Assembly (NCBI RefSeq): GCF_001485535.1
Contig: NZ_BCMZ01000001.1
Span: 434,001-498,000 of the forward strand
Direction of reading: 5' to 3'
Origin: Halobacterium sp. CBA1132
GTDB taxonomy: Archaea; Halobacteriota; Halobacteria; Halobacteriales; Halobacteriaceae
Length of the DNA stretch: 64,000 nucleotides
Position numbers and translations under genes: made by a program. The notes below the pieces were generated by a model, which worked only from the letters and a program-made list of their open reading frames with translations, made no database searches and was not told the origin of the DNA. Positions 20,707 to 26,835 of the stretch are shown here, in pieces. Positions within the stretch are counted from its first letter, which is position 1. Each line of letters opens with the position of its first letter.

Positions 20707-21117
20707 TCAGAACGGGGACTCGACGCCGTCGTCGGGGCTCGTCGCCGCGGCGTCCTCCTCTACGTCGGCCTCGTCGGCGTTCAGTTCGTCCGCGAGCTCG
20801 CCGCGCTCCTCCAGTTCGGCGAGGATGTCGCTGCCGCCCACGAACTCGCCGTTCACGAACGTCTGCGGGATGGTCTCCCAGCCGCTGCGCTCTTCGAGCG
20901 CGACGCGGAACTCGTCGAGGCTCTGGAGCGCGTCCACCGTGTGCACGTCCGGTCGGTACTGCGAGATGAGGTTGATTGCGCGCTTCGAGAACCCGCACTG
21001 GGGCATCCGCGCGTCCCCCTTCATGAACAGCACCACGTCGTTGTTCTCGATCGCCTCGGCGACGATTTCGTCGACCGCCTCCTGCTCCATCGCGGAGTCC
21101 ATCGGGTCGAAAGCCAT
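20707..21117 (-). CDS. Monothiol glutaredoxin (Grx4/GrxD-like)
   Basis: 136 residues. The monothiol active site CGFS is in ARMPQCGFSKRAI near residue 42, preceded by VVLFMKGD. WETIPQTFVNGEFVGGSDILAELEERGEL gives the TIP and GG-D glutathione-binding motifs. CGFS glutaredoxins carry and deliver Fe-S clusters. The C-terminal 25 residues are an acidic tail (ADEADVEEDAAATSPDD). ATG 21117 fits the family; a longer in-frame extension is antisense-like to gfcR and is rejected. Confidence 0.9.
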   Translation of the reverse strand: MAFDPMDSAMEQEAVDEIVAEAIENNDVVLFMKGDARMPQCGFSKRAINLISQYRPDVHTVDALQSLDEFRVALEERSGWETIPQTFVNGEFVGGSDILAELEERGELADELNADEADVEEDAAATSPDDGVESPF

Positions 21118-21248
21118 ACTCGTCCTACGGCGAGGACAGAGAAAGGCCTTGGGTAGCGTGGCCGAGCAACGCGAGGCCACGTTAGAGCGAGCGGGGAGGA
21201 ACGACCCGCGAGCCGCGTGACTGAACGAAGCCCGCGAAGCGAGCGTCG

Positions 21249-21880
21249 TCAGTCGTCGTTGCCGACGCGGATGACTTGGAACAGGGATTCGAGGGGGACG
21301 TCGCCGACGTCGCTGATGCCTTGTTTGTCGACGAGGACGCCGCAGGCGACGGGTTTTCCGTCGGCTTCGCGGATGGCTTCGACAGTCTCGGTGATGGTGG
21401 TGCCGGAGGTGATGGTGTCGTCGACCACGAAGCACTCGCGGTCTTCGACGCTCGCGAAGTTCCGGCTGAAGCTCCCGCCGAGTTCGTCGATGTCGCCTTC
21501 GTCCCACTGGTGTTTGCGGGGGTGTACGTCGCGAGGTCGGTCTTCAGTTCGTTCGAGACGGCGGTGGCGAGCGGCACGCCGGCCTTCTCGACGCCGACGA
21601 TGAGGTCGACGTCGTGGCTGTGCTCGCGGAGCGCGTCCGCCAGCGCCATCCCGATGGCGTTGAGGCGCGCGCCGGCTTCACCGATATTGCTCCAGTCCAC
21701 GTGAACGTCCTGTGGGCCGCTCACTGGTGCTTCGTCGACGGGAGCCGACGTGCCGGCGCGCTCGACGAGCCAGCTCGCGGTCTCCCGGGAGACGTTCAGT
21801 TCGTCCGCGATTTCGCCACGCGACAGCCCGCGGGCTGCGAGCTCCGACGCGCTGTCGATGAGGTCGTCGACGTTCTTCAT
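21249..21880 (-). pseudogene. gfcR: GfcR-like phosphoribosyltransferase-fold transcriptional regulator, frameshifted
   Basis: The N-terminal HTH (DLIDSASELAARGLSRGEIADELNVS) is followed by an orotate-PRTase-like domain (VDLIVGVEKAGVPLATAV). In the starting frame homology ends at LATYTP (C5 run, 21518-21522 on the plus strand as G5). In the next frame it resumes at once: RKHQWDEGDIDELGG, then FVVDDTITSGTTITE (the PRPP loop), to VGNDD and TGA at 21249. One more C would restore a 210-residue protein. As read, the frame runs on with a nonsense tail to 21182. GfcR activates spED and glycolytic genes in Haloferax; here it overlaps gdh by ATGA. The cause may be real mutation, phase variation, -1 slippage or sequencing error. 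Confidence 0.85.
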
Positions 21881-22944
21881 CTACTGTCGAATTGAACCGC
21901 CGTCTTGATGGTCGTTTCGTCGTCGACGAACGCTCGGTCGAACTCGTCGAGGTCGTAGACGCCGGTGACGAGGTCGTCGAAGAACCACTCGGGGAGCGCT
22001 TGGAGGGTGTCGACGGCGGCTTCGAAGTGCCGGACGCCGGAGTTGACGCTGCCGACGAGGGCCTTGTTCTGGAGGACGAACTCGCGGTGGAGGCGGCCGC
22101 CCGCGACTTCGAAGTCCCAGTCCTCGGGGACACCGAGCAGCGCGCCGACGCCGTTGGGCGCGAGCGCGTCGACCGTCTCGAAGGCGTGTTTCGGGTAGCC
22201 GGTGGCTTCGTAGACGAAGTCCATCGGTTCGTGGGCGGCCGGAATGTCGGGCACCGGGGTCTCCCGGGAGTCGACGTAGGTGGCGCCCAGTGATTCGACG
22301 ATGTCGATTGTTGGGTCGGGGCGGTCGCGGCGCCCGAGGCAGTACGTGCGCTCGAAGCGCTCGTCGGCGTCCAGCATCGCGAGCGTGAGCAGGCCCAGCG
22401 AGCCGTTCCCGAGCACGAGCGCGCTCTCGGGCCGCCAGTCGAACGCCGAGCGCGCGGCGAACGCGTGCTCGAAGCCCTTCTCGGAGATGCTGACGGGTTC
22501 GACGAGGAAGCCGCGCTCGGCGAGCGTGTCGGGAATCTCCACGAGGAACTCGGCGGGGCTGGTGAAGTACTCGGCCATGAAGCCGTGCGCGCCCTCGATG
22601 CCGCGCTCGTGGTACTGGCCGCCGGGCGCCATGTCGGGCTCGCCGCGCTCGAAGTAGTCGTTGGTGCCGTTCGGCCGGCGGCGGACCGTCGGCACGACGA
22701 CATCGCCGGCGTCGAGGTCGGTGCCGTTCGGGTCCTCGACGACGCCGACGGCCTCGTGACCGAGCACGAGGTGGTCGTCGCCCTCGGGGAAGCCGCCGTG
22801 GCTACCCGCGATGACTTCGTGGTCGGTGCCGTCGACGCCGACGCGGAGCGTGCGCACGAGCGCTTCGCCGGGGTCTGGGTCGGGTCGCGGCAGGTCGACG
22901 ACGCGCGGCGTCCGGTCGTCGCGGGTGACGGCGATTGCGTCCAT
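21877..22944 (-). CDS. gdh: Glucose 1-dehydrogenase (zinc MDR family)
   Basis: 355-residue medium-chain dehydrogenase of the haloarchaeal/Sulfolobus glucose dehydrogenase type. It oxidises D-glucose to gluconolactone with NAD(P), the first step of the semi-phosphorylative Entner-Doudoroff route. Catalytic zinc ligands fit those known for Haloferax mediterranei GDH: Asp in GVDGTDHE near residue 38, His63 and Glu64 in LGHEAVG, and Glu near 150 (LVEPVSI). The structural zinc site appears absent, also as in that enzyme. Rossmann motif LVLGNGSLGLL is near 178. The stop codon overlaps the gfcR start (ATGA), implying coupled translation. Confidence 0.93.
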   Translation of the reverse strand: MDAIAVTRDDRTPRVVDLPRPDPDPGEALVRTLRVGVDGTDHEVIAGSHGGFPEGDDHLVLGHEAVGVVEDPNGTDLDAGDVVVPTVRRRPNGTNDYFERGEPDMAPGGQYHERGIEGAHGFMAEYFTSPAEFLVEIPDTLAERGFLVEPVSISEKGFEHAFAARSAFDWRPESALVLGNGSLGLLTLAMLDADERFERTYCLGRRDRPDPTIDIVESLGATYVDSRETPVPDIPAAHEPMDFVYEATGYPKHAFETVDALAPNGVGALLGVPEDWDFEVAGGRLHREFVLQNKALVGSVNSGVRHFEAAVDTLQALPEWFFDDLVTGVYDLDEFDRAFVDDETTIKTAVQFDSR

Positions 22945-25596: not shown

Positions 25597-26835
25597 ATGG
25601 GAATAGATTACAGCGACCTTCACGACCCGAACGCGGAGTACACGATGCGCGAGCTCTCCGCGGAGACGATGGGCGCCGACCGCCAGCGACCCGCGCCCCG
25701 AGACCTCGAAATCACCGACGTGCAGACGACGATGGTCGACGGGAACTTCCCGTGGACGCTCGTCCGCGTCTACACGGACGCGGGCGTCGTCGGCACCGGC
25801 GAAGCCTACTGGGGCGCCGGCGTCCCCGAACTCGTCGAGCGGATGAAGCCGTTCGTCATCGGCGAGAACCCCCTCGACATCGACCGGCTCTTCGAGCACC
25901 TCGTCCAGAAGATGAGCGGCGAGGGCTCCGTCGAGGGCGTCACCGTCACCGCGATCTCCGGCATCGAAATCGCGCTCCACGACCTCGCCGGGAAAGTGCT
26001 GGACGTGCCCGCCTACCAGCTGCTCGGCGGGAAGTACCGCGACGACGTGCGCGTGTACTGTGACTGCCACACGGAAGCGGAAGCCGACCCCGAGGCGTGC
26101 GCGGACGAGGCCGAGCGCGTCGTCGAGGAACTCGGCTACGACGCCCTCAAGTTCGACCTCGACGTGCCCTCCGGCCACGAGAAGGACCGCGCGAACCGCC
26201 ACCTCCGCCCGGGCGAGATTCGCCACAAGGCCGAAATCGTCGAGCGAGTCACCGAGCGCGTGAAAGACCGCGCGGACGTCGCCTTCGACTGCCACTGGAC
26301 GTTCTCCGGCGGCTCCGCCAAGCGCCTCGCAAGCGAACTCGAGGAGTACGACGTGTGGTGGCTCGAAGACCCCGTTCCCCCGGAGAACCTCGACGTGCAG
26401 GAAGAGGTCACGAAGTCCACGACGACGCCCATCGCGGTCGGCGAGAACCGCTACCGCGTCACCGAGGAACGCCGCCTCATCGAGAATCAGGCCGTCGACA
26501 TCGTCGCGCCCGACCTCCCGAAGGTCGGCGGGATGCGAGAGACCCAGAAGATTGCGGACGTCGCCAACCAGTACTACGTGCCGGTGGCGATGCACAACGT
26601 CTCCTCCCCGATTGCGACGATGGCGAGCGCGCACGTCGGCGCCGCCATCCCGAACAGCCTCGCCGTCGAGTACCACTCCTACGAACTCGACTGGTGGAGC
26701 GACCTCGTCGAGGAGGACGTCATCGAGAACGGCTCCATCACCGTCCCCGAGGAGCCCGGTCTCGGCCTCACGCTCGACATGGACGCCGTCGAGGAACACA
26801 TGGTCGACGGCGAGACCTTGTTCGACGAGGCGTAA
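25597..26835 (+). CDS. gad: D-gluconate dehydratase (enolase superfamily)
   Basis: 412-residue mandelate-racemase/muconate-lactonizing-type dehydratase that converts gluconate to 2-keto-3-deoxygluconate, step two of spED. Magnesium ligands: Asp in FDCHWTF near residue 230, Glu in WLEDPVPP near 256 and Glu in VGENRYR near 284. The catalytic Asp-His dyad follows: VAPDLPK and VAMHNVSSP. Transcribed with kdgA (10-nt gap). The stop codon lies in the loop of a perfect hairpin (26823-26844), and the last codons are echoed three times downstream. Confidence 0.9.
   Translation: MGIDYSDLHDPNAEYTMRELSAETMGADRQRPAPRDLEITDVQTTMVDGNFPWTLVRVYTDAGVVGTGEAYWGAGVPELVERMKPFVIGENPLDIDRLFEHLVQKMSGEGSVEGVTVTAISGIEIALHDLAGKVLDVPAYQLLGGKYRDDVRVYCDCHTEAEADPEACADEAERVVEELGYDALKFDLDVPSGHEKDRANRHLRPGEIRHKAEIVERVTERVKDRADVAFDCHWTFSGGSAKRLASELEEYDVWWLEDPVPPENLDVQEEVTKSTTTPIAVGENRYRVTEERRLIENQAVDIVAPDLPKVGGMRETQKIADVANQYYVPVAMHNVSSPIATMASAHVGAAIPNSLAVEYHSYELDWWSDLVEEDVIENGSITVPEEPGLGLTLDMDAVEEHMVDGETLFDEA

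Follow-up and report, generated by a model that had tools for sequence, protein, structure and literature searches.

GfcR is a haloarchaeal activator of glucose and fructose degradation, represented among NCBIfam models by NF045507 (transcriptional regulator GfcR, an equivalog with a cut-off of 300 bits). PMC11519228 describes GfcR as activating sugar-degradation genes in Haloferax, in agreement with the first-pass annotation, and gives pyrE1 as its name in Haloarcula hispanica.

A second point of reference is technical. Where an assembly undercounts homopolymers, G/C runs come out one base short in various conserved genes that are unrelated to one another. The case considered here, a gfcR gene whose reading frame breaks at a run of five Cs, has to be judged against both.

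The gene lies in a stretch of 64,000 nucleotides (the window) from a genome of 3.01 Mb (3,012,807 bases) in four contigs, G000, assigned to Halobacterium on the basis of related named records. The gfcR gene begins at 21880 on the minus strand, immediately behind gdh, and the genes of a semi-phosphorylative Entner-Doudoroff pathway stand close by. The features of the locus are as follows.

20707..21117, minus strand: glutaredoxin-family gene downstream of gfcR, left untouched by the frameshift (family profiles)
21182..21880, minus strand: gfcR open reading frame as read, 232 amino acids, of which 120 are native and 112 form an out-of-frame tail
21249..21518, minus strand: 3' part of gfcR in the native frame, to its natural stop (a stretch 99% identical to the restored query)
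21396..21428, minus strand: PRPP loop VVDDTITSGTT in the native frame (sequence; relatives share it, with I/V and V/L variants)
21518..21522, minus strand: five-base C run, site of the frame break (sequence, frame reading and relatives)
21519..21880, minus strand: 5' part of gfcR, with the N-terminal region and the start of the PRTase domain (frame reading, family profiles)
21877..22944, minus strand: gdh (glucose dehydrogenase), intact, its stop overlapping the gfcR start codon (ATGA); Pfam PF16912, 324 bits
24618..25586, plus strand: kdgA-like aldolase (DHDPS family), intact (Pfam; below NCBIfam equivalog cut-offs)
25597..26835, plus strand: gad-like sugar-acid dehydratase (enolase superfamily), intact (Pfam; below NCBIfam equivalog cut-offs)

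The frame is lost exactly at 21518-21522, where GGGGG on the plus strand reads CCCCC on the gfcR coding strand. From the ATG at 21880 the gene encodes its native residues up to ...DLATYT and then continues in a foreign tail to a stop at 21182. As assembled it therefore differs from known GfcR proteins: its frame is interrupted at codon 121, it lacks the PRPP loop, and the match to NF045507 ends at residue 128 with 185 bits, below the cut-off, so that the product is not a full-length member. PF00156 likewise stays below its gathering score. Adding one base at the run recovers the native frame (PRKHQWDEG...VVDDTITSGTT...RVGNDD, ending at the TGA at 21249-21251) and with it the PRTase domain and PRPP loop. 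The restored protein scores 345 bits and passes the cut-off; in this and in its place after gdh it resembles GfcR. The first-pass annotation was thus right on the identity of the gene, on the position of the break and on the effect of one added C.

An uninterrupted gfcR is present in 10 of 12 Halobacterium congeners; in the remaining two, gfcR and orthologues of gdh and gad are all absent. Among gfcR-bearing congeners the break is unique to G000. Nor did the whole genome contain a second intact gfcR, the one weak match being another phosphoribosyltransferase-like protein, and a scan of viral contigs found no other copy of the gfcR junction. These comparisons bear on two of the four options that the first-pass annotation had listed. 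The first is a programmed -1 frameshift on CCC, by which full-length GfcR would be made from the sequence as it stands. Judging from the sequence, a prolyl-tRNA paired with CCC could slip back by one base and regain the native frame, but all 10 gfcR-bearing congeners keep a single uninterrupted frame with no conserved slippery site, codon re-pairing offers no support for a tandem -1 slip across ACC and CCC, and the same lesion is present in four unrelated genes (below). We reject a conserved frameshift or slippery site in gfcR, and regard programmed frameshifting as exceedingly improbable. The second is phase variation, in which switching between five and six Cs would turn GfcR off and on. It has in its favor the presence of a run at the break and nothing more. 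The run is short, its length is ordinary (1,258,000 bases, 1.258 Mb, contain 1013 five-base G/C runs and 130 with at least six bases), and no long run is conserved at the site in relatives, which makes phase variation very improbable as well.

Close relatives carry ACG CCC CGC, ACG CCG CGC, ACC CCG CGC or ACT CCC CGC at the break site; six Cs is not the state in any of these. In a tree of gdh and gfcR the window groups with G002, G011 and G004 (support 89/94, drawn open), while G009, G012 and the H. bonnevillei genome fall outside that clade. Read from this tree, the parsimonious ancestor would be ACG CCC CGC (ACGCCCCGC), which is also the commonest form in close relatives. A single step, the loss of its G, turns this into exactly the observed ACCCCCGC; the same sequence is reached in two steps if the G first became C and one C was then lost. 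A run of six Cs before the loss is plausible. The earlier description of the lesion as one missing C holds for the loss of one base; that this base was a C from a run of six is an inference, since loss of the G gives an identical sequence.

Beyond the break, in the native frame, gfcR is still highly similar to its relatives. Three amino-acid changes there are unique to G000 (E to D, D to E and T to S), all of them conservative, and pN/pS between G000 and six relatives, calculated over few sites, is 0.16-0.44 downstream of the break and 0.11-0.26 upstream. These figures show no clear decay, and they suit a sequence error as well as a mutation of very recent origin. Such a mutation would be a real one-base deletion caused by replication slippage; gfcR would have become a pseudogene only lately, perhaps during culture, and an intact semi-phosphorylative Entner-Doudoroff gene cluster would have been left without its activator.

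How unusual such a state would be can be gauged from an order-wide sample of 155 genomes. Thirteen are without gfcR, and all 13 are also without gdh (absence judged at E <= 1e-40); one of them, G127, retains a gad-like gene, 80% identical. Other lineages have lost gfcR outright, along with gdh, which speaks for a real deletion; gdh was kept without gfcR in 0 cases, which speaks against it, and a pathway without its activator would accordingly be an unusual state. Two further genomes have an interrupted gfcR. In G110, from another genus (L190:1747-2381), the PRPP loop of gfcR carries a one-base shift, and the match to the neighboring gdh is likewise split and changes frame; the double interruption suggests sequence quality or locus decay. 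The locus in G093 (L191, around 2055) contains AGATGTGTATAAGAGACAG beside an N, which we take to be Nextera transposase adapter sequence, and this interruption is an assembly fault in a public genome. Neither supports frequent natural loss of gfcR.

G000 also has a second gad-like dehydratase at C1:1.27 Mb (L185, G000:C1:1260000-1279999). Its neighbors, from a reading of open reading frames, are an oligopeptide-type ABC transporter, an alpha-glucuronidase-like protein, two GH3-like proteins and one FAH-like protein, and the locus looks like a xylan/xylose degradation cluster. Given this apparent setting, we rejected the gene as a backup for the glucose cluster.

If the break in gfcR were an assembly error, then the same class of lesion is expected in unrelated genes. 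This expectation was tested genome-wide by comparing C1:1-1258000 of G000, aligned in stretches, with its counterpart in the close relative G002. A first scan, based on mismatch periodicity, had a power of only about 35% and was replaced by one based on open reading frames. Genes were predicted by codon usage, and a frameshift was called where third-position mismatches followed one continuous frame on both sides of an indel; testable coding sequence came to about 818,700 bp (~0.82 Mb), spread over about 840 genes of G002. Inspection led to the dismissal of apparent shifts that lay where a gene start was over-extended. Five interior frameshifts specific to G000 remained, gfcR included, each confirmed by tblastn or frame inspection.

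C1:5925-5929, G run on the plus strand: oligopeptide ABC ATPase, one-base loss at a five-G run; G002 has six Gs there
C1:199048-199052, G run on the plus strand: FAD oxidoreductase, one-base loss at a five-G run; G002 has six Gs there
C1:455518-455522, G run on the plus strand: gfcR, one-base loss at a five-G run
C1:1053055-1053059, G run on the plus strand: MrfA/HRQ1-like helicase, one-base loss at a five-G run
C1:1169574-1169578, G run on the plus strand: CARDB-domain protein, one-base loss at a five-G run

In every case a single base is missing at a plus-strand run of exactly five Gs. Runs of five G or C account for 0.4% of bases, and the chance that all five shifts should fall there is about 1e-12. 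The genes have no evident common function and both coding strands are represented. Two frameshifts were confirmed in G002, one in a membrane protein and the other in a KaiC-like ATPase, at the counterparts of G000:C1:1051292 and 1068724; neither sits at a homopolymer run. A test of 747 genes for interior in-frame nonsense mutations in G000 confirmed none: of the 15 candidates, most are close to over-extended gene starts, and two mid-gene cases that were inspected proved to be artefacts, one arising from the alignment of a flagellin and one from a gatB start placed too far upstream. The restriction of the five runs to G on the plus strand is explained by neither error nor real slippage, and the cases are few. 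Seven-base runs in C1:1-1258000 number 7 G and 0 C on the plus strand.

Because the same one-base shortening of a G/C run occurs in at least four unrelated genes, the gfcR frameshift is probably a sequencing or assembly error. From this pattern we infer homopolymer undercount, with a probability of roughly 0.75. The living organism would then have an intact gfcR, the assembly being one base short in a six-base C/G run, and the break would be one case of a recurrent, partial undercount of G/C runs. Undercount is favored by the recurrence of one lesion at one kind of run in all five G000-specific interior frameshifts, by the lack of confirmed interior nonsense mutations and of clear decay in gfcR, by the intact pathway genes, and by the absence of gdh from the sampled genomes that lack gfcR. 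Several observations count against it. At 27 six-base G/C runs of G002 with clean flanks, G000 has six bases in 25 and five in two (the reverse, G002 being shorter than G000 at six-base sites, was seen 0 times), so the majority of six-base runs appear at full length, unlike what a general undercount would give. Nor are long G/C runs scarce overall in the G000 assembly, whose total counts match those of G002. The error would thus have to be partial, and a partial undercount would leave overall run counts looking normal; five losses set against 130 runs of six or more amount to a few per cent. At gfcR itself, the relatives lack six Cs and the parsimonious ancestor would need only the loss of a G. 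The assembly may be a PacBio one.

Real replication slippage likewise favors such runs, and this preference for the same sites is why a genuine deletion, although unlikely, keeps an appreciable share of our belief. The sequence as given supports it, G/C runs are natural slippage sites, and the absence of decay suits a very young mutation. It requires, however, five independent deletions of the same kind in conserved, unrelated genes, with no nonsense mutations. Of the explanations first proposed, then, read error is the best supported, and phase variation and -1 slippage are unsupported. The statement that gfcR is broken is correct for the frame in the sequence; a broken regulator in the organism is not established, given that four other genes have the same shortfall.

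Were the deletion real, the glucose-degradation cluster would be intact without its activator, and the strain would offer a naturally occurring gfcR mutant for measuring whether the pathway is expressed constitutively or stays silent. A by-product of the comparison is the close co-occurrence of gfcR and gdh among the sampled genomes. Taken at face value, the window describes a sugar-using archaeon whose own pathway has been deprived of its activator; the pattern across the genome makes it more likely that no such loss took place, and other genes of this assembly that are broken at five-base G/C runs should be treated as suspect too.
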